NCBI GenBank assembly: GCA_030620115.1
Contig: JAUXFG010000028.1
Coordinates: forward strand, 1-34,890
Reading direction: 5' to 3'
From: Candidatus Fermentibacterota bacterium
Lineage (GTDB): Bacteria; JAFGKV01
Length of the DNA stretch: 34,890 nucleotides
Positions 12,971 through 34,732 of the stretch are shown piece after piece (position 1 is the first letter of the stretch; each line of letters opens with the position of its first letter). Under the pieces are notes generated by a model that saw only the letters and a list, made by a program, of their open reading frames with translations, was not told the origin of the DNA and ran no database searches. The position numbers were made by a program, and so were the translations under genes.

Positions 12971-13720
12971 CTAATCTCTCAGCAAACCCATCCTCAGCAC
13001 ATCGTGATGAGCTCGGTCGAAAAAAACCTCATTTCGCAAGATGCCCTCGATCCGAAAGCCCAGCTCCTCATTCAACCTGATATTCATGATATTGGTCTCC
13101 AGTGTATTGAGATAGATCTTCTCCAGGCCAAGGGTGGCTTGTCCGTATGCGATCCACAGCTTTGTAGCCTCTTTCCCAAATCCTCTGCCCCGCGCCTTTG
13201 ACTCCCCCACTATCTTCCTCAGCTCAGCCTTTGCTTGGATCCTGTCATGGTTGATATATGCAACCAGCCCGATGGGAGTCGTATCGTGCAGTGTCACCGT
13301 GCCGAGGATGCACCGATCGTTCTTGATGAAGTCATCGACACAGAGGAATCTTGATGACGTGATGGAGAGCAGGAAGTACCGTCCATGCTGGTCGTCGATC
13401 CATTTCTGGAAAAAGACCCGGTCGGTCTCACGCTGGAAGGATCTTATCGTCAACCGTTCACTCCGTAAGGGCAGGATAAGAGACGCCCCCACATCCTGCA
13501 TAGGGTTCGAAGTGCGTCGAATGTCACGAGATGGGGCGGGCGAATCCGTCGATAGGTGATTGTTGCTCATTGCGGAATCAAGAAGAATGTTCACGAATCG
13601 AACATAGTCCATCTTCTTGAATCCATAGGCGGACGCCTCCTTGAAGAACCCTCTTGCCAAAGTCTCAATCGTGGTATCCGGTAGTTCACTCTCTGGCTGA
13701 TCCACGGCAATCCTCTCCAT
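12971..13720 (-). CDS. GNAT-family N-acetyltransferase (RimJ/RimL-like)
   Basis: The recommended start is the ATG at 13720 (MERIAVDQPES), preceded closely by AGGAA. Longer versions up to 13864 would only add sequence lying over the GH13 gene in another frame. The 249-residue protein has about 80 N-terminal residues with a helical segment (LARGFFKEASAYGFKKMDYVRF) that I cannot place, then a RimJ/RimL-type GNAT fold. That part has LRSERLTIRSF, the acetyl-CoA loop ESKARGRGFGKEA, LNTLETNIMNIRLNEELGF and a FFDRAHHDVLRMGLL ending. It transfers an acetyl group to an amine, but the substrate is unknown. The start overlaps the last 35 bases of the upstream GH13 gene, so translation is probably coupled. 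Confidence 0.85.
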   Translation of the reverse strand: MERIAVDQPESELPDTTIETLARGFFKEASAYGFKKMDYVRFVNILLDSAMSNNHLSTDSPAPSRDIRRTSNPMQDVGASLILPLRSERLTIRSFQRETDRVFFQKWIDDQHGRYFLLSITSSRFLCVDDFIKNDRCILGTVTLHDTTPIGLVAYINHDRIQAKAELRKIVGESKARGRGFGKEATKLWIAYGQATLGLEKIYLNTLETNIMNIRLNEELGFRIEGILRNEVFFDRAHHDVLRMGLLRD

Positions 13721-16700
13721 GTTTTCCTGTTGTTGCGTCGGTTCTTCCCCCTGTATTGAACGGGAATCTCCCCTGCGTATCCGACTGCAGACCACGGTTG
13801 GCGGATTCATCCCAAGCCACCACGCGGTAGTAGACATCTCCGTCAGGTGGGGCACTGTCAACATAAGAGGTATCGATGACTGAGGATAGGAAGTAAACGT
13901 TCTCTGTCTCGAAATACGGGATCATCGCCCGGTAGACCTCGTAGAAAGAGACCTGTTCGGGCCCACCAATACTGTCAGATGTTACTGCGGACCACGTGAC
14001 GGTGATGTGCCCTTCCGACGGAATCAGAGTCACTTCATCTGGAGCGGCGGGTGGGATGGTATCCTCAGTAGTCCATCGTTTGTTTCGGCAGTACATCCTT
14101 GCCTCGGAGCCTGGAATCGTGAGAACACGCTGCAGGTCGGAGACATTGACAGTAGAATCACCAAGGAACTCATACCATATTCCAGTTATGGGAAAGTCTA
14201 TGCTCACCGTCTTGGCAAGACGATCGAAATTGACCACCACCACCACGGAGTCAGTATTGGAGTCAGTGGCCCTCCAGTACGAAATCACATGATTATCACT
14301 GTCCTGGAGCGTGGTAAAGAGGTTTCCACTTCGAAGAGATGCATAGTTCTTTCGAAGCCAGATCAAACGGCGGTAATGCTTGAGAAGTCCTGATCCCGCA
14401 TCTTCCTCCACATACTCCCAATGGAGCGGATTCGGATCAATGGTACGTTCAGTATCTTCGCCGAATTCCTGCCCATGGTAAAGCATAGGCGTGCCTGTGC
14501 AGGTCAGAAGAACCACGGCCCCCAGCTTCGACTTCTTGACTGCCAGGTCATAGTCGATGCCCGGATTGGTCTGCGCTTCGTAGACAATCCTCTGTTCATC
14601 GTGGCTCTCGGTATAGTTCACCACCTGGCTCTCGTCGGTGAACCCATCGCCGGCATAGTGGATGGCTTGGGCGGTTACATCCATGTTCCCATAGCTCGAT
14701 CCTTCGAACTGATCCTCGCGCAGGTTCGCCTTCATCTGGTCGTGAAAGGTATCGTGCCAGAGTGACGTCGCCTTGGTCTCAGTCACCACATCCGTTTCCT
14801 GGGGCAGGTGTTCGAGCACCTGGTACACATCGTGATCATGATCCCAGGCAACATAGGTGAAGTATCCGATACCATTCCCGGCGCCGTCGCCCACACCATC
14901 CCAGCCAATGAACGCAGTGGCATCATATCGGAAGCCGTCCACGTGATATTCGTCCATCCAGAACTCCAGTACATCCTTGGTGAGCTGTTTCGTCCCATCA
15001 CTCCAATGATCAAGATCCGGGAAACCCCAAGGATTCGTGAGCGCATGAAACCACGGGCTGGCATCATAGTCGTCGCCGTACAACCGGTACAAGGAGGCCG
15101 ATGCATCCAGATGATTGAACACCATATCGATCAGGATGGCGATACCGTAGGAGTGGGCTGCATCTACGAGGTTCTTCAGATCATCCGGGCTCCCGTACGT
15201 GGCCTCGGGCGCGAAGTAGTAGGCCGGGTTATATCCCCAGCTTATGCCACCGGGGAACTCATAGCAGGGCATGAGCTCAAGAGCATTGATCCCTAGCGAG
15301 GCGAGATAGGGAAGACGTGCCTGCAGACCGGCAAAGTCGCCGCTTTCAGAAAAATCACCCACGTGCGCTTCATAGATGATCATATCTTCCGGCGCAAGGG
15401 GAAGCCAAGAAACATCAGTCCACGGGAAGGCTGTTTCGCCTACTTCGATTACGGCTTCAGCGAGACGCCAATTGCCGGATTGTGCGCCATTCTCAGTCCA
15501 ATCGACTTCCCGTGCATACGGGTCGGCAATGGGGAGATTCCCGTCCACAAGAAAACGATAGTGGTACGTTCCATCGGCGAGCGTCAGGCTAGTCCACCAG
15601 ATGCTATCCTGGTACGACATGAGAAGGTCGGAACTGCCGCTCCATCCGTTGAAGTCACCGGACAAGGCCACAAAGTGCTTCTCCGGCGCCCAGAGGGCGA
15701 AGGTTGCCGTACCATCACCATTGTCGTTCGCTCCTGGTGACGTACCGCCGGGAGGCTGCGAATCAATGACTGTGGGCACGATCCAGGTATGGGTGAAGTC
15801 AAACGAGACCAGGCCTGCATTCTCCGCCTCTGCCACCAGGAGGTGTGATCCCAAGGAGTCCGCACTGGTATCCCATGAAAAGGGCGAGCTAGTGGCCACG
15901 TCAGTGCCGTCGAGCCAAAGCGTGGTTTGAGTCGCACCGCTGCTGGTCCAGGTCACGTTCACCACCACACCCTGAACGAACGATGTATCCGCGGGGGGAT
16001 GCGTCAGATCGACCTCAGGTTCACCGGCTCGAGGCTCGAACCAGAGCTTGATCTGATAGTCATTCCCGCTGTTGTTGTCCCAGGAGTCATCCAACCAGTG
16101 GATGACGAAATCCGCGGTATGCACCAGTTGCGCTCCCGTGTTGAAGGGACCCAGGCTGATGGTACATTCGCCGTTGGGATCGGGGCCCAGAAGAGGGCTT
16201 TCAATAGCAGTGTTGCCCGACGGGCTGCTTCCGGCCGGCCAGTACTGCGAAATCGGAGCAGTCCACGAACCATCGCCCGCGTTCACCCCCCAATGAAGCC
16301 AGCCCGACTGAGTACAATCTCTCACTGCAATGTCAATGGAATCGTTGGGCCCGGGTGGATCAGGCGTCCATACCAGATGACCCTGCGTCGCGTCGTAGAA
16401 GATCCCATCATTGGGGCGGATATCCGGACCGAGCCGGAAACCGTAGTGATGCACAAAGGTCTTCTCGCCGATTCCGTCCGATACGCCATTATCGGGGACC
16501 GCACTGTACAACCAGCCCCATCCGGGAGCCGAGGGAGATGCCAGGTCTTTCGCATAGATCACCATATGAACATGAGATGTAAAATGGAGATGGCTTCTGG
16601 GAATGGCCATCTCACACGAGCTATCGTTCCACACCACCGTGAACTCGGCCCTCAGATCATCGGTGGAGTTGGCGCCATCCCGCTGCCAGGACGATCCGTC

Positions 16701-17111
16701 ATGGAGCCATACGTGTTTTTCCGCCAAACCGTCAACCGCTTTCACTGAATAGAGGAGGTCTGCATTGAACGGCAGATTGACGATTGATCCCGCATACCAT
16801 TCCTCAGAAGGGAGCGATGAATCACCGGCTCCTTCTGACAGCCCAGGCATTGGATCGAAATCCATGGCGGCGAAGAGCGCCTGGTTGTACCCCCCGTTGT
16901 CGTTGATATTCACGCCGTCGAAGCCCACATACAACGAGTCAGCATCCCATGTCATGTAGCCGTTCTTGTTTGATGTCGAAGTCCACCATCGCTCACCACT
17001 GGTGTCCCATTCGGAAAGATCACCATCAACGGTTATTGAATGGTAGGTGTTCGCATATGTCGCACCTATGTGCATCAGCAGAAGAAGCGCAGTCACTGTT
17101 CTGATAGGCAA
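13686..17111 (-). CDS. Secreted multidomain GH13 alpha-glucan enzyme (amylase/branching type)
   Basis: An 1141-residue exported protein. Signal peptide is 1-21 (cut near YANTYH). A CBM9/DOMON-like domain (ITVDGDLSEWD, about 25-225) is followed by a beta-rich segment (about 230-365), an Ig-like stretch (about 366-450), a CBM48-type domain with LSGDFNGWSG (about 465-555) and the GH13 barrel (about 575-1000). GH13 motifs are region I DMVFNH (662-667), nucleophile Asp730 in VDGFRYDAT, acid/base Glu778 in VVTETKAT and region IV ESHDEQ (His837, Asp838). A fibronectin-III-like domain closes it (about 1020-1115). CBM48 and the SHDE motif point toward glycogen-branching or related enzymes; export and carbohydrate modules point toward starch or glycogen breakdown outside the cell. 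The start is a TTG with GAGGAGG at 17117-17123. Confidence 0.92.
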   Translation of the reverse strand: MPIRTVTALLLLMHIGATYANTYHSITVDGDLSEWDTSGERWWTSTSNKNGYMTWDADSLYVGFDGVNINDNGGYNQALFAAMDFDPMPGLSEGAGDSSLPSEEWYAGSIVNLPFNADLLYSVKAVDGLAEKHVWLHDGSSWQRDGANSTDDLRAEFTVVWNDSSCEMAIPRSHLHFTSHVHMVIYAKDLASPSAPGWGWLYSAVPDNGVSDGIGEKTFVHHYGFRLGPDIRPNDGIFYDATQGHLVWTPDPPGPNDSIDIAVRDCTQSGWLHWGVNAGDGSWTAPISQYWPAGSSPSGNTAIESPLLGPDPNGECTISLGPFNTGAQLVHTADFVIHWLDDSWDNNSGNDYQIKLWFEPRAGEPEVDLTHPPADTSFVQGVVVNVTWTSSGATQTTLWLDGTDVATSSPFSWDTSADSLGSHLLVAEAENAGLVSFDFTHTWIVPTVIDSQPPGGTSPGANDNGDGTATFALWAPEKHFVALSGDFNGWSGSSDLLMSYQDSIWWTSLTLADGTYHYRFLVDGNLPIADPYAREVDWTENGAQSGNWRLAEAVIEVGETAFPWTDVSWLPLAPEDMIIYEAHVGDFSESGDFAGLQARLPYLASLGINALELMPCYEFPGGISWGYNPAYYFAPEATYGSPDDLKNLVDAAHSYGIAILIDMVFNHLDASASLYRLYGDDYDASPWFHALTNPWGFPDLDHWSDGTKQLTKDVLEFWMDEYHVDGFRYDATAFIGWDGVGDGAGNGIGYFTYVAWDHDHDVYQVLEHLPQETDVVTETKATSLWHDTFHDQMKANLREDQFEGSSYGNMDVTAQAIHYAGDGFTDESQVVNYTESHDEQRIVYEAQTNPGIDYDLAVKKSKLGAVVLLTCTGTPMLYHGQEFGEDTERTIDPNPLHWEYVEEDAGSGLLKHYRRLIWLRKNYASLRSGNLFTTLQDSDNHVISYWRATDSNTDSVVVVVNFDRLAKTVSIDFPITGIWYEFLGDSTVNVSDLQRVLTIPGSEARMYCRNKRWTTEDTIPPAAPDEVTLIPSEGHITVTWSAVTSDSIGGPEQVSFYEVYRAMIPYFETENVYFLSSVIDTSYVDSAPPDGDVYYRVVAWDESANRGLQSDTQGRFPFNTGGRTDATTGKHGEDCRGSARE

Positions 17112-28954: not shown

Positions 28955-29590
28955 ATGCGCGAACAGCTTGCGAACGCACTCTTGAGCGGTGATGACATCG
29001 CCACGAGAGACCTCACTGCCACGCTTCTGGAGCAGGGCGAGAGCCCGGTCGGAATCCTCGAAGACATACTACTGCCTACCATCAGGAAGGCCGGCGACCT
29101 ATGGGAAGAAGGGGAGCTGTTCATCCCCGAGCTTCTGCAAGCCAGTGCTGCACTCAAGGCAGGCCTTGAAGTCATCAAACCCCTGCTGCCGGCCTCCTCG
29201 GAATCTATGCGGGGAACCATCATTGTCGGCACAATTCAGGGTGATATCCACGATATTGGAAAAACCCTGGTGGCGGGCATGCTCGAGTCAGCAGGACACC
29301 GGGTAGTCGACCTAGGTGCGGATGTGTCCCCTCAGAGCTTTGTGGGCGCTGCTCAGCGAGAAGCCGCACAGCTGATCTGTATATCCGCCTTACTGACCAC
29401 TACCATGCTCAACCAGGAATCTGTGGTTACCGAGCGCAACAATGCGGCGCTCCAAGGGCGAGTGGGCATCCTGGTAGGCGGTGCACCCGTGACACGAGAA
29501 TGGGCTGACAGAATCGGTGCAGAGGGCTATGCACCCGACGCCTTTCGGGCCGTGCAGGAGGCGGCTCGTCTTCTGGCCATCGTGCAATGA
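28955..29590 (+). CDS. Corrinoid (B12-binding) methyltransferase protein, MtxC type
   Basis: A 211-residue cognate corrinoid protein that shuttles a methyl group on a cobalt cofactor. About 1-80 is the four-helix cap (LLPTIRKAGDLWEEGELFIPELLQAS). The rest is the Rossmann-like B12 domain with GDIHDIG (His99, lower cobalt ligand), the SALLTTTM segment and GGAPVT. Its size and make-up match MtgC/MttC-type proteins and the central modules of methionine synthase. It is the first gene of a five-gene run and its stop overlaps the next start (ATGA). It should be methylated by the MttB-like protein and demethylated by the homocysteine methyltransferase encoded immediately downstream. Confidence 0.93.
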   Translation: MREQLANALLSGDDIATRDLTATLLEQGESPVGILEDILLPTIRKAGDLWEEGELFIPELLQASAALKAGLEVIKPLLPASSESMRGTIIVGTIQGDIHDIGKTLVAGMLESAGHRVVDLGADVSPQSFVGAAQREAAQLICISALLTTTMLNQESVVTERNNAALQGRVGILVGGAPVTREWADRIGAEGYAPDAFRAVQEAARLLAIVQ

Positions 29591-30447
29591 GCTCAATCCT
29601 TCTCCTGGATGGCGCCATGGGTTCCATGCTGCTCTCAGCCGGACTCGAGACCGGCGGCATGCCGGACCTCTGGAACATCACCCAACCGGGAATCGTACAA
29701 TCCGTGCATCAGGCGTACCGGGATGCCGGCGCGGATATCATCACCACCAATACCTTTGGCGCCAATCCGGCCCGCCTCAAGGCGAATGGTCTTGATCCTT
29801 CCATCACCACCAAGATTAATCAGGAGGCCGTTCGTTTGGCTCGGGAGGCAGCCGGGCATAGCCAGGTGGCAGGTGACATCGGCCCCACAGGCATGCTTCT
29901 CGAACCAGTTGGCCCCCTGCGCAAGGAGGATGCGCTAGTCTCCTTCCGTGTGCAGGCCGAGGCCCTCGCCGCCGGCGACGTAGACCTCTTGTTGTTGGAA
30001 ACCTTCTTCAGCCTGGATGAGGCATTGCTGGCTCTGCAGGCGGTCAAAGAGGTGTGTGCCATACCCGTCTGGGTGAGCCTCACTTTCAGGAAGACCCGCC
30101 GCGGCTTTTTCACCATCCATGGAGACAAACCCCTCGAATCGCTTCGCGTCCTCCTCGGGCATGGCGTGCAAAAGGCAGGAGCGAATTGTACGCTATCCAG
30201 CGCTGACATGAAAATTCTGGCCAAGGAACTCTGTCAGCAACTTGGAGACAGGGTGTTTCTCCAGCCGAATGCAGGTGAGCCACGAGTCGTGGACCGCACT
30301 ATCATCTATCCTGAATCCCCCGCGGAGTTTGCCGGGAATATGCTCGATATGGTGGCTTCCGGCGCAGAAGCCGTAGGTGGATGCTGCGGCACGACCCCAG
30401 ATCACATCCGAGAGTTGCATGATGCTCTGCAAGGGAGGCATACGTGA
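29587..30447 (+). CDS. Homocysteine S-methyltransferase (BHMT/MetH N-terminal type)
   Basis: A 286-residue TIM-barrel enzyme. It has LLDGAMGSMLL at the start, TTNTFGAN near 53-60, AGDIGPTG, LLLLETFFSLDEA, and the zinc ligands Cys201 (in GANC) and Cys266-Cys267 (in VGGCCGTTP). These are the zinc cysteines of betaine-homocysteine methyltransferase and of the homocysteine-binding domain of MetH, which activate homocysteine as thiolate. It overlaps its neighbours by four bases on each side (ATGA upstream, GTGA downstream). With a corrinoid protein beside it, the donor is more likely methyl-cobalt than betaine or S-methylmethionine. No folate-binding or reactivation domain of MetH is attached. Confidence 0.9.
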   Translation: MSSILLLDGAMGSMLLSAGLETGGMPDLWNITQPGIVQSVHQAYRDAGADIITTNTFGANPARLKANGLDPSITTKINQEAVRLAREAAGHSQVAGDIGPTGMLLEPVGPLRKEDALVSFRVQAEALAAGDVDLLLLETFFSLDEALLALQAVKEVCAIPVWVSLTFRKTRRGFFTIHGDKPLESLRVLLGHGVQKAGANCTLSSADMKILAKELCQQLGDRVFLQPNAGEPRVVDRTIIYPESPAEFAGNMLDMVASGAEAVGGCCGTTPDHIRELHDALQGRHT

Positions 30448-31895
30448 CGCCGTCGCTGAGACTTCTCTCCCCCACTACCGTGGGGGATGTCATAGACGAG
30501 GCCCAAACCATACTGGAGACATGGGGCGTATGGATTGAGCATGAACAGGCTCGGGCCATGCTTTTGGAGAAGGGCGCCAAGCTGAAAGAGAATCGCGTGT
30601 TGATACCCCGAACTCTCGTTGATGCGGCCCTGGAAAGCGCTCCTTCGGAGTTCTCGCTCTGGGACGTGACCGGAGCGCAGGAGTACGTGGTGGGGGGAGA
30701 TCAATTCCGGTTCGTCCCCGGCTCGGCTGCGCTGGAGATTTGGGATGATCAGAAAGGGAAATCCCGGCGGGCGATTACTCGAGATTTGGTAGATTTGGCG
30801 CGACTCGTCGAGAAGCTCGAGTACCTCTCCTTCCAAAGCACTTCTCTCATTTCCTCTGATGTGCCCGAGGAACTTGCAGACCGGTATCGGCTCTACCTTG
30901 CCCTCCAGTTCTGCCGCAAGCCCGTGGTCACGGGCACATTTCAAGAGGATGCATTTCCATGCATGCAGATGCTCCTGGAAATCGTCCGAGGGGGTGTAAG
31001 GGAGCTGAAGGATAAGCCTCTGGCAATCTTCGATTGCTGCCCCTCTGCCCCCCTCAACTGGAGCCGCTTGACTACCGATGCTCTGATCCGATCCTCCGCA
31101 GCCGGCATACCGGCTGAGCTCATTTCCATGCCTCTTGCCGGCGCCACAGGGCCGGTGACGCTCCTGGGATCCATAACGCAACATTGCGCAGAAAGCCTCG
31201 CAGGCGTGGTCATTCATCAGACCGCGAAATCGGGCGCTCCCATAGTGTATGGAGGCAGCCCTTCAATCATGGATATGCGTCACGGCACCACCCCCATGGG
31301 CGCAGTGGAGACCCAGATGATCGACATGGCCAATGCCCAGATAGGAAAGGTGCTTGGCCTTCCGACACATGCATATATGGGCTTGTCCGATGCACCCTGG
31401 CCTGACTATCAGGCCGGAGCTGAATCAACGATGGGAGCTGCGTTAGCCGCGCTCAGCGGTATCAACGTCATTTCAGGGCCCGGCATGCTGAAATTCGAGA
31501 GCAGGCAAAGTCTTGCGAAGCTTGTCCTTGATAACGATTCTGTTGGCACGGTACACCGTCTTCTCCGCGGAATAGAGACACGCGAACAACCCATGGCTCT
31601 GGATCTCATGGAACCCTTGCTGTCAAAGGGGCATCTGCTGAACAGCGGGCATACACGGAAGTGGTTTCGCGAGGAATTCTACTTCCCTGGGCCATCCGTG
31701 GAGCGAAGAACAGATCCCGGCGAGGAGTCTGATGCACGGGGTGCGCATGCTCGTGCGTCCGATAGAGTGAAGAAGCTTCTTGCGGAGCCCCGACACCCCA
31801 TCCTGGAGCCCCGGATGCAGGCGGAGTTCAGAAAGATAATGGAACGTGAGTTCTCTCGCCATGGAGCTTCTCTCCCGCCCATTAAGGAGAGTTGA
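30444..31895 (+). CDS. MttB-family methyltransferase, pyrrolysine-free
   Basis: A 483-residue member of the trimethylamine methyltransferase (MttB) superfamily, which demethylates tertiary or quaternary amines and passes the methyl to a corrinoid protein. Recognisable stretches are WGVWIEHEQARAMLLEKGA, ALEIWDDQKGKSRRAI, ATGPVTLLGSITQHCAE, GGSPSIMDMRHGTTPMGAVE and GLPTHAYMGLSDAPWPDYQAG. The frame is uninterrupted, with no in-frame TAG, so it lacks pyrrolysine, like MtgB (glycine betaine) and its relatives. The substrate cannot be read from sequence; glycine betaine, proline betaine, carnitine or choline-type compounds are known for the family. The GTG start has AAGGGAGG five bases upstream. 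Confidence 0.9.
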   Translation: MTPSLRLLSPTTVGDVIDEAQTILETWGVWIEHEQARAMLLEKGAKLKENRVLIPRTLVDAALESAPSEFSLWDVTGAQEYVVGGDQFRFVPGSAALEIWDDQKGKSRRAITRDLVDLARLVEKLEYLSFQSTSLISSDVPEELADRYRLYLALQFCRKPVVTGTFQEDAFPCMQMLLEIVRGGVRELKDKPLAIFDCCPSAPLNWSRLTTDALIRSSAAGIPAELISMPLAGATGPVTLLGSITQHCAESLAGVVIHQTAKSGAPIVYGGSPSIMDMRHGTTPMGAVETQMIDMANAQIGKVLGLPTHAYMGLSDAPWPDYQAGAESTMGAALAALSGINVISGPGMLKFESRQSLAKLVLDNDSVGTVHRLLRGIETREQPMALDLMEPLLSKGHLLNSGHTRKWFREEFYFPGPSVERRTDPGEESDARGAHARASDRVKKLLAEPRHPILEPRMQAEFRKIMEREFSRHGASLPPIKES

Positions 31896-32689
31896 TGCAC
31901 CTCATCGCACTGCAGTGGGATTTGCTCCCTCTGGACCCCCAATCCAATATGCAGAAACTCAAGGATCTCGTGGCTACGGCTGTTCCCGAGCCCGGAGACC
32001 TGCTGGTTTTGCCGGAACTCTGGCCAACAGGTTACGGAAACCGCGCAGCTCTTCTTGGATTGACCAAAAAGATGGCGCCGGTCTGGCAAATCCTGCTGGC
32101 TGAACTCGCTAGCGAGCACCAGATGTATGTGATCGGCGGCTCAGTCCCTGCGCTTGAGAAGGATCGGCTCTATAACAGACTCTGCGTCTATGGCCCCACG
32201 GGTGACCAGATAGGGCAGTATGACAAAATCCACCTCTTCCCACCTATGAATGAGCAACAGCTTTTTTCACCAGGCGAAACCCCTGAGCCCATTCCATTGG
32301 GCAAGGGGCTGCCGGTAGTGGGACCAACGATCTGCTATGATCTGCGCTTTCCGGAGCTCTTCAGGCATCTGGCGCGGCGTGGCGCGACTCTCTTCGTGCT
32401 CCCCGCCGAATTCCCTGATCCAAAGGAAGATCTCTGGCAGATCTTCCTCGCTGCCCGGGCCGCTGAGAACCAGGCCTATCTGGTGGCCTGTAATAGGACG
32501 GGGAAGGCGGGTTCGTTCACCTTCTTCGGCTCCAGTGCGGTCTATGATCCTGAGGGGCAATGCCTTGGCCGACTAGGAAGAGATGAAGGCTTCCTGAAGG
32601 TCGAGATCGACCTCTCGCTTGTGCAGGAAGCCAGGAGAAGGCTGCCTGTGCTGTCACACTGCCGCCTTCACCTTGCTATGGATAGATGA
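31895..32689 (+). CDS. Nitrilase-superfamily carbon-nitrogen hydrolase (amidase)
   Basis: A 264-residue amidase with the catalytic Glu-Lys-Cys triad: Glu41 in LVLPELWPTGY, Lys111 in YDKIHLF and Cys147 in TICYDLRFPE. The pattern, including a second Glu in AARAAENQAYLVACNRTG, is that of the omega-amidase and deaminated-glutathione-amidase group rather than true nitrilases. The ATG at 31895 follows AAGGAG by five bases and overlaps the preceding stop by one (TGATG). In a methyltransferase operon it might process an amide in the same metabolite route, or handle 2-oxo amides that come with transamination of sulphur amino acids, as omega-amidase does in methionine salvage. Both roles are inference. 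Confidence 0.92.
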   Translation: MHLIALQWDLLPLDPQSNMQKLKDLVATAVPEPGDLLVLPELWPTGYGNRAALLGLTKKMAPVWQILLAELASEHQMYVIGGSVPALEKDRLYNRLCVYGPTGDQIGQYDKIHLFPPMNEQQLFSPGETPEPIPLGKGLPVVGPTICYDLRFPELFRHLARRGATLFVLPAEFPDPKEDLWQIFLAARAAENQAYLVACNRTGKAGSFTFFGSSAVYDPEGQCLGRLGRDEGFLKVEIDLSLVQEARRRLPVLSHCRLHLAMDR

Positions 32690-32940
32690 ATCTCATCAAC
32701 CTGACGACACGGAAACGGAAGCAGAAACTCCCGAAGCGGAAGCGACTGAAAATTCCGCGGAAAAAGGAGAAGCGCCCACCTGCCTGGATGAAGAGTAGGA
32801 TGTACTGGTTGGGCTGGCTCTTGTTCCTTGTCTCGCTCCCCTTCATGGCGCTGTCTGTATCGCAAAGCATCTGGTTCCTGGCCCCTGGGGCCATCCTGTT
32901 GGCTGCCGCAATCTATGCCCACCTCGTGCATCGGAGGTAG
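32686..32940 (+). CDS. Small basic membrane protein
   Basis: An 84-residue protein whose start overlaps the amidase stop (ATGA), which supports it being real. Residues 8-34 are strongly basic (RKRKQKLPKRKRLKIPRKK), followed by two probable transmembrane helices (YWLGWLLFLVSLPFMAL and IWFLAPGAILLAAAIYA) and a short basic end. The charge pattern suggests a cytoplasmic N-terminus. No family is recognised. It may sit at the membrane with the operon's enzymes or be an unrelated passenger. Confidence 0.7.
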   Translation: MNLINLTTRKRKQKLPKRKRLKIPRKKEKRPPAWMKSRMYWLGWLLFLVSLPFMALSVSQSIWFLAPGAILLAAAIYAHLVHRR

Positions 32941-32960: not shown

Positions 32961-33716
32961 TCAGGATGGAGAGCGTTTAGGTTGTTCCCTGACAAGCCCC
33001 AAAAGAGGGAGATCTTTGATGTGCCGGAAGGTGCGACAGAAAACGACTTTTCCTCCCTTGGAATAGATCCCGTCCATCATATCCGTGAACGCCTGCAGCG
33101 TTTCGACCTCAAGGAGCGCCGCAGTCAGCGTTCTCCTCTCCCCCTGACGCTTCTGTTGGGCCAGGCTCAAAACACGTGCTCCTTGAAGAACCCCCTCATC
33201 CTGCAAAGCCGATGCTGGATCACTCTCAAGCAAGCGGAGACAGATGATCCAGTGACCCTGCTTGAACTCATCTATTCGTTGAAGCATCGTTTCATGTTGA
33301 TTCTCAGAAATCGGAAATACAGGTGGGCTCGAACCCGGGTCAAGCATTCGCGCGATGGATTCCACAAGGCTCCGGTTATCAAAGGGCTTTGCCATGAAGC
33401 CGTCCGCCCCCTCGTTTATGCAGCGCGCGATGTCTTCAACACAGTCAATCGCAGTGAGCACCAGCACGGGGATATCGGCAGTTCGTGGGTTGCTCTTGAG
33501 TCTTCTGCACACCTCGTGTCCGTCAATCTCAGCCATTCTGATGTCAAGAAGAATCACCCCGAACTCTTCTGCCTCCACCAGGGCCAACCCTTGGGAACCG
33601 GTGAGTGCGCCGATGACCTCGAAACCCCTGATACCCAGCAACGTCTGCAAGAACTCAATGATATCTTGATCATCATCAATGACTAGTATTCTCCGGTTCC
33701 GTGGTTCCGCAGTCAT
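32961..33716 (-). CDS. Response regulator with unrecognised C-terminal domain
   Basis: A 251-residue protein. Residues 8-127 form a CheY-like receiver with the acidic cluster Asp14-Asp16, phosphorylated Asp58 in ILLDIRM, Thr88 in VLVLTA and Lys110 in FMAKPF. About 140-251 is a mostly helical region (MLQRIDEFKQGHWIICLRLLESDP...) followed by basic LVREQPKRS. It contains no helix-turn-helix, GGDEF, EAL or HD motif that I recognise, so it is probably a protein-interaction output. The start overlaps the histidine kinase stop by four bases (ATGA), so the two are a cognate pair. Confidence 0.9.
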   Translation of the reverse strand: MTAEPRNRRILVIDDDQDIIEFLQTLLGIRGFEVIGALTGSQGLALVEAEEFGVILLDIRMAEIDGHEVCRRLKSNPRTADIPVLVLTAIDCVEDIARCINEGADGFMAKPFDNRSLVESIARMLDPGSSPPVFPISENQHETMLQRIDEFKQGHWIICLRLLESDPASALQDEGVLQGARVLSLAQQKRQGERRTLTAALLEVETLQAFTDMMDGIYSKGGKVVFCRTFRHIKDLPLLGLVREQPKRSPS

Positions 33717-34573
33717 GTGCCCCCACCCCCGCCGGTGCTCCGGCCATAATCCACGTCGGGGTTTTCCTCGCCCGGCTCCGATGTGGGCAGCTCGAAGCAG
33801 AAAGCTGAACCCTTGCCGGCTTCGCTACGCACCTCGATGTCCACACCATGTGCCCGCAGTATCCTCTTCACAATGGCGAGGCCCAGACCAGTCCCACCGA
33901 ATTTCCGTCGCACGGAGCCATCCGTCTGCCGGTATCTGTCAAAGATGAATCGCTGAGCTTCCTGTGGAATACCACAACCGGTGTCTTCCACCCTGACACA
34001 GACCTTCCCATCCTTCGGCTCAGAGACCGCGATATGGATTCTCCCGCCTGAGTTCGTGAACTTCATGGCGTTTGACAGGAGATTGGCAAAGACCCGTTCG
34101 ATTCTGGTCCTGTCGCCTGCCACCAAGATGGGCCGATCCGGTAGGGTAATGGAGAATTGAAAACCCTTTTCTCTGATGGATGGTTTGAAGTTTCGCCCGA
34201 GATCCTCCAAAAGCTTCTTCAGAGGAAACGGTCTCAGACGATTCGGCGCCAGGGCCCATCCCATCCTATGGAATTGGAGGATCTGGTTGATGAGATCGAC
34301 GATCCCGGCCGCATTTCTTTGAATGATCTCCAGCGACTTGCGTTGCCGCGCGCCGATTTTCCCCAGATCACCATTCAAAAGCATTTCCGTATAACCGATG
34401 ATCGTCACCAATGGTGTCCTCAGCTCATGAGAGACATTGCCGCTGCATTCGTCCATCAGCGCCTCTAATCCGTGCAATTCCTCATTCTCTGCTGAAAGCC
34501 GTGCCACCTCGGCTTCGAGTCTTTCGATGAGCGCGTCCTTTGATTCGATCTTCTGTTCAGTCACGTGCGTCAT
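33713..34573 (-). CDS. Soluble sensor histidine kinase
   Basis: A protein of 286 residues from the ATG at 34573; a TTG at 34636 would add 21 residues, and neither start has a good ribosome site. A coiled coil (ESKDALIERLEAEVARLSAENEEL) leads to the dimerisation helix with the phosphorylated His in VSHELRTPLVT. Then come N box NLLSNAMKF, G1 DTGCGIP, F box FDRYRQTD and G2 GGTGLGLAIVKRI. The end is a Gly-rich tail. There is no transmembrane or PAS domain, so it probably receives its signal from a partner protein in the cytoplasm. It overlaps the response regulator gene by four bases and is the first gene of the pair. Confidence 0.92.
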   Translation of the reverse strand: MTHVTEQKIESKDALIERLEAEVARLSAENEELHGLEALMDECSGNVSHELRTPLVTIIGYTEMLLNGDLGKIGARQRKSLEIIQRNAAGIVDLINQILQFHRMGWALAPNRLRPFPLKKLLEDLGRNFKPSIREKGFQFSITLPDRPILVAGDRTRIERVFANLLSNAMKFTNSGGRIHIAVSEPKDGKVCVRVEDTGCGIPQEAQRFIFDRYRQTDGSVRRKFGGTGLGLAIVKRILRAHGVDIEVRSEAGKGSAFCFELPTSEPGEENPDVDYGRSTGGGGGT

Positions 34574-34732
34574 GGCTCCGAAGTGAGAGAGCGGATCAAT
34601 AGAACGTATGACGACAAAAGGCGTCAACGTCTGCAATGTGATCGAAACACAGATTCACGTCAACCATTGCCGGGAATGGGGGCTTGCCAACGAACCGCCT
34701 TGAATATAAGACTACAGCGAAAAAAGCAACAT

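Follow-up and report, generated by a model that had tools for sequence, protein, structure and literature searches.

Here, we describe an operon of five genes that is likely to encode a split corrinoid-dependent methionine synthase in which an enzyme of the MttB superfamily replaces the folate module. The methyl groups of methionine and SAM normally come from methyl-folate. In this reading the direct methyl transfer, the amine donor, the reactivation of the corrinoid and both enzyme activities are inferred and without biochemistry. The gene content and gene order, the MttB clade, the co-occurrence of its members with the partner genes and the lack of alternatives in several genomes are shown. 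The operon occupies positions 28955-32940 of the window, by which is meant the whole stretch of 34,890 nucleotides that was analysed, and which is contig 169 in a draft genome (G000) of 4.1 Mb with a completeness of 98%.

The five open reading frames are all on the + strand and overlap successively by exactly 4 bases (29587-29590, 30444-30447, 31892-31895 and 32686-32689). They encode, in this order, a corrinoid protein, a zinc homocysteine methyltransferase (HcyMT), a non-pyrrolysine MttB, a carbon-nitrogen (CN) hydrolase and a small membrane protein. The first gene starts at the ATG at 28955, with the Shine-Dalgarno sequence AAAGGAGG ahead of it, and encodes an MtgC/MttC-like corrinoid (B12-binding) protein (28955-29590, +; PF02607 and PF02310) with the DxHxxG motif GDIHDIG, the predicted methyl carrier. 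Its top NCBIfam match, MtgC/pyl_corrinoid, was under the cut-off, and the PDB matches were 1y80 and 7xcn. The second gene (29587-30447, +; PF02574, 230 bits) encodes a stand-alone zinc HcyMT homologous to the homocysteine module of MetH and predicted to be the methyl-acceptor side. The zinc ligands in GANC (C201) and GGCC (C266 and C267) are all kept in its relatives, its nearest PDB structure is the N-terminal half of Thermotoga maritima MetH and not BHMT, and it clusters with the HcyMTs of other such operons, apart from both the MetH and the HcyMT-MTHFR fusion of the same genome. The third gene (30444-31895, +; PF06253, 266 bits) encodes the MttB-superfamily methyltransferase, the predicted methyl-donor module, which matches the MtgB structures 9yce/2qne at 200 bits. 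An in-frame TAG was sought in this mttB and none was found; the frame is open throughout, and the protein is therefore without pyrrolysine.

The two remaining genes appear to be lineage-specific accessories. The CN-hydrolase of the omega-amidase/nitrilase superfamily (31892-32689, +; PF00795, 162 bits) meets its Pfam model although every equivalog match in NCBIfam was under cut-off, and it is part of the cluster solely in the phylum of the window. The small basic membrane protein of 84 aa (32686-32940, +) has no Pfam or NCBIfam match, and an orthologue follows the hydrolase in both relatives from the phylum (G001 and G002). The initial annotation, made from the sequence alone, had claimed five touching or overlapping genes at this location, and this held with correct coordinates and gene identities, the overlaps being 4 bases in every case. 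The motifs GDIHDIG, GANC and GGCC and the pyrrolysine-free nature of MttB also held. Furthermore, it had stated that no MtxA, pterin-binding domain or corrinoid reactivase is present in the window; no further corrinoid-methyltransferase genes were found among the large open reading frames scanned there, and the likely reactivase is on another contig. No SAM or cobalamin riboswitch was found upstream of the operon, and a role in methionine or B12 metabolism thus receives no such support. Elsewhere in the window, a large protein with CBM48 and alpha-amylase domains is encoded at 13686-17111 (-), and a histidine kinase/response-regulator pair at 32961-34636 (-) is convergent with the operon.

The proposed mechanism follows the chemistry known for the families. 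MttB would transfer a methyl group from an N-methylated compound, the identity of which is undetermined, to the Co(I) of the corrinoid protein, and HcyMT would pass it from the methyl-Co(III) corrinoid to zinc-bound homocysteine to form methionine. Oxidised cobalt would be rescued with SAM by a separate MetH activation-domain protein in most relatives, and in the lineage of the window a RamA/AcsV-like ATP-dependent reactivase encoded elsewhere in the genome would probably reactivate the corrinoid. It must be noted that no biochemistry, expression or structure stands behind the split-synthase reading.

The phylum of the window was represented by three genomes only (G000, G001 and G002). G001 has all five genes in the same order, with an MttB 63% identical to that of the window, and G002 has them in the same order spread over two contigs; orthologues of the three core proteins are 51-65% identical within the phylum. 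The conservation of operon order in both relatives indicates that the arrangement is not due to chance. All three genomes have MetH plus an HcyMT-MTHFR fusion, so that the expected absence of metH from the window's genome was rejected, and the operon is therefore an additional route in that genome and not its sole methionine synthase. The PF00809 proteins of the window's genome are MetH and two dihydropteroate synthases (DHPS), and those of the two relatives are likewise only MetH or DHPS. These matches were rejected as MtxA candidates, being MetH in addition to DHPS located beside ftsH and/or a cdaA-like gene, and the genomes of the phylum consequently lack an MtxA, MtgA or MtgD for methyl acceptance. 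The two separate DHPS genes of the window's genome (L017 and L020, on contigs C100 and C1) each adjoin a cdaA-like membrane diadenylate cyclase gene. A RACo-type protein is found in each of the three genomes, those of G000 and G001 resembling AcsV/RamA reactivases. In G000 this protein is the single RACo-type reactivase and lies on a different contig from the operon; it is likely the corrinoid reactivase serving the operon, although its reactivating function is inferred. A second, distant MttB (L013, G002:C13; 25% identical to that of the window) lies beside genes that resemble those of an extracellular solute-binding protein and of a GntR-type regulator, and may be located on a contaminant contig.

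The distribution of this MttB was explored with a profile built from the three MttBs of the phylum and run over 386 genomes. About twenty further proteins scored 438-585 bits, and the next score, after a gap, was 257. Together with that of the window they form a monophyletic clade of 22 proteins (support 0.978) present in 18 family-level lineages outside the phylum. The members are at least 43% identical to the MttB of the window, and all other MttBs are at most 31% identical. A second wide genome search returned largely the same genomes again, and a contig search with protein P0003 returned a lone relative at 28% identity. Matches to the Rfam model PYLIS_3, the pyrrolysine insertion sequence of mttB, were observed inside the non-pyrrolysine mttB of seven loci (L071, L073, L077, L078, L080, L081 and L082) in the absence of an in-frame stop, and the model probably recognises mttB coding sequence.

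The gene neighbourhoods of the clade were compared by examining about 5-17 kb around twenty loci outside the window's phylum. HcyMT was adjacent to the clade mttB in 12 of the 20 loci and in none of 20 control loci of other MttBs (Fisher p = 4.5e-5). This count ignores shared ancestry; the positive loci span 11 families. In most of the 12 positive loci the corrinoid protein was adjacent as well, and one more complete cluster, beyond the twenty loci, was found in G387. Of the remaining eight loci, three are broken or located at a contig edge, and the other five lack HcyMT next to mttB. In four of these five the genome encodes a split HcyMT at another site, and in three of the four the activation or corrinoid protein is paired with it. 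Such unlinked pairings comprise activation protein and HcyMT in G008 and G295, and corrinoid protein and HcyMT in G137. G355 has all three together elsewhere, its mttB being at a contig edge, and the clade mttB stands alone in G057 and G137. An HcyMT was not found in the G104 genome despite its clade mttB. No further families were seen to recur near the clusters across many lineages. In L085 (8669-9963; G120:C202) an open frame joins the middle of HcyMT to an MttB fragment, which is the scar of a deletion or else an error of assembly.

In eleven clusters with a clade mttB there is, in addition, a gene for a protein of some 230 aa that bears the MetH activation-domain signature SPGY...KSVSGV. 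PF02965 was matched by eight of the nine activation proteins scanned against Pfam (E 2e-4 to 1e-13), two of the eight scoring below the curated cut-off, and the ninth, from L082, has no Pfam match, yet aligns with the other eight. A methyl-THF:corrinoid transferase, on the other hand, was found within one cluster only (L069 in G060), while G322 and G295 have stand-alone relatives of this transferase, as does G104 at the edge of a contig. Since the homocysteine, B12 and activation modules are all present, the typical cluster can be viewed as a MetH taken apart with MttB in the place of the folate module. The same tally applied to the window's system identifies PF02574 with its zinc ligands, together with the B12 cap domain and a B12-binding domain that carries DxHxxG, but no PF00809 donor module. 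A means of cobalamin reactivation is present as well, being RACo-type in G000-G002 and PF02965-type in the clusters of most relatives.

The strongest evidence for MttB as the methyl supplier comes from genomes without another methionine route. Six genomes with a clade member (G101, 100% complete; G212, 97%; G274 and G137, both 96%; G200, 83%; G008, 82%) have no MetH-type or MtxA-type PF00809 protein, no PF01717 (MetE/core-MetE) and no PF02219 (MTHFR). Their only PF00809 proteins are DHPS, of which G200 has none, and the sole PF02574 protein in each is that of the split system. The lack of MetH, MetE, MTHFR and a methyl-folate:corrinoid transferase in these genomes argues for folate-independent methionine synthesis, as the pattern is hard to reconcile with a methyl-folate donor. 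PF01717 was absent from 22 of 23 genomes examined. Several genomes besides that of the window have both MetH and MTHFR. Where MTHFR is present, almost every genome has retained MetH or a different PF00809 transferase, and G139 has MetE instead. These absences are uncertain, because most of the genomes are draft MAGs and MTHFRs outside PF02219 exist. The initial annotation had proposed a search for the core in related genomes, which was run and revealed its recurrence in many lineages. It had also proposed to check whether metH and MtxA-type genes are missing where the core occurs; they are missing in part, in the six genomes but not in the window's genome and its two relatives, which keep MetH. 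A folate methyltransferase of the MtxA type always paired with the set, which would have refuted its proposal, is not observed, as the single cluster in L069 is the exception. Its core inference, that HcyMT takes the place of MtxA and that MttB charges the resulting split methionine synthase, is thus supported by the recurrence, by the single cluster with a folate transferase and by the six genomes without alternatives, while direct methyl transfer remains inferred only.

An N-methylated donor is expected since known MttB-family enzymes demethylate quaternary amines or TMA (PMC8604678). For MtgB, the residues Y94, N199, R309 and F/Y353 have been proposed by docking to contact glycine betaine (PMC6855144). 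In the 22-member clade the corresponding columns hold S, C, H/Q and almost always E, and the column of MtgB H345 aligned poorly. Glycine betaine is therefore not favoured as the donor, with the caveat that the residues in question derive from docking. An L-lysine 6-transaminase gene (TIGR03251 over cut-off) adjoins the clade mttB in two separate lineages (L068:5476-6834, - strand; L073:278-1666, - strand), and one may speculate that this is a weak hint at a donor of the N-methylated lysine type. A permease resembling basic amino acid/polyamine antiporters is divergent from mttB in G008 and G295 (L080:3503-4819, + strand, and its equivalent in L081), possibly another weak hint.

Other explanations must be weighed against the split synthase. 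The operon could be a shared hub like MtgBCDE, in which MttB charges the corrinoid protein for catabolism via a folate transferase and HcyMT uses the same corrinoid protein charged from methyl-folate, as proposed for Ruegeria. The same families and a common corrinoid are indeed found there (PMC12478193), and a folate transferase resides inside the G060 cluster, with stand-alone ones in G322 and G295. However, this is unlikely since the three genomes of the phylum contain neither MtgD nor MtxA, and the six clade genomes lack both such a transferase and MTHFR. Alternatively, homocysteine could be a mere methyl sink, the main role being disposal or catabolism of a methylated amine with methionine as by-product. 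The MetH and MTHFR already present in the window's genome, and the amidase and membrane protein added in its lineage, speak for this. Methionine synthesis itself seems to depend on the set in genomes devoid of MetH, MetE and MTHFR, however, and genes for downstream demethylation are not a recurrent feature around the clusters, so that this possibility is also doubtful.

It is even less probable that the MttB clade now uses another substrate and acts as a methyl-THF:corrinoid methyltransferase, having replaced the folate module of MetH without being homologous to it. Such an enzyme would occupy exactly the place of that module, MttB has TIM-barrel methyltransferases, MetH among them, as structural neighbours (PMC9842639), the clade pocket differs from that of MtgB, and an ever-available donor would suit genomes without other methionine synthases. 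Against this, the genomes seemingly dependent on the clade are those without MTHFR, and genomes with MTHFR nearly all retain a MetH or other PF00809 transferase. The most remote explanation is that HcyMT works by itself, with betaine or S-methylmethionine as the methyl donor for homocysteine, and that MttB and the corrinoid protein do something unrelated. PF02574 does include BHMT and MmuM, and W29 aligns with a Trp also present in rhizobial Bmt. Nevertheless, the enzyme is nearest to those of MetH type, and G58 and T139 are as in MetH-type homologues. These two residues sit at the expected positions of Y77 and Y160, the aromatic betaine-binding residues of human BHMT, a placement made without human BHMT in the alignment. 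The conserved operon and the pairing with corrinoid and MetH activation proteins also speak against a solitary enzyme.

The split synthase favoured here shares parts with several described systems. MtgBCDE (Mausz et al. 2025, PNAS; PMC12478193) is known from Ruegeria pomeroyi and from Sinorhizobium; in Ruegeria, MtgB and the HcyMT subunit MtgE share MtgC, and MtgD is essential for both roles. Both systems combine an MttB-family donor enzyme with a stand-alone corrinoid protein and a stand-alone PF02574 HcyMT tied to methionine synthesis. They differ in that MtgBCDE depends on MtgD, its folate subunit, and frequently has mtgE at a separate locus, whereas the genes described here form one tight operon without MtgD, involve another MttB clade and are accompanied in relatives by a MetH activation-domain protein. 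On a plasmid of Terrarubrum flagellatum (L149:5971-8509), bmt, encoding an HcyMT, adjoins an MtgB-like mttB beside genes for sarcosine oxidase and an FAD-dependent oxidoreductase, a betaine context like that of MtgBCDE; this MttB groups with MtgB outside the clade and is 25% identical to that of the window. The three-part split MetH of Phaeobacter inhibens (Price et al. 2018, PMC5764234) likewise has its homocysteine, B12 and donor modules on separate genes and RamA-like reactivation, but its donor module is a folate (PF00809) protein and not MttB. MtgB, MtcB, MtpB and MtyB of anaerobes (PMC6855144, PMC8604678) are non-pyrrolysine MttBs that methylate a cognate corrinoid protein, from which MtxA-type enzymes serve THF or CoM as acceptor, and the MtgB pocket residues are not kept in the clade. 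MesA-MesD and core-MetE (PMC7857596, PMC7005905) also methylate homocysteine from methyl-corrinoid independently of folate, but have the MetE-type fold (PF01717) in contrast to the MetH-type PF02574 module employed here. An MttB directly replacing the folate module is found in none of the nearest systems, i.e. MtgBCDE, the Phaeobacter split MetH and MesA-D, and the gene set was unreported in the literature searched, which was restricted to open-licence papers.

On balance, we lean cautiously towards a bolder interpretation, in which a widespread folate-independent methionine synthase has arisen as MetH split into homocysteine, B12 and activation proteins, with MttB in the folate position, and in which an N-methylated compound would be the only source of the methionine methyl group in bacteria without MTHFR. 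If true, this would be another folate-independent route, made from MetH parts rather than from MetE-like core synthases. It would explain bacteria without MTHFR, MetH and MetE, require predictions of methionine auxotrophy for such genomes to be revised, and assign a testable anabolic role to a large MttB clade that so far has none assigned. It would furthermore suggest that the donor module of MetH is exchangeable, and a cluster on plasmid 1 of Gemmatirosa kalamazoonensis (L121:14559-20776, - strand) points the same way. It encodes a UroD-family protein, a corrinoid protein, a RACo-type reactivase, an activation-domain protein and HcyMT, is unannotated in the record, and may follow the same split plan with another putative donor module of UroD type.
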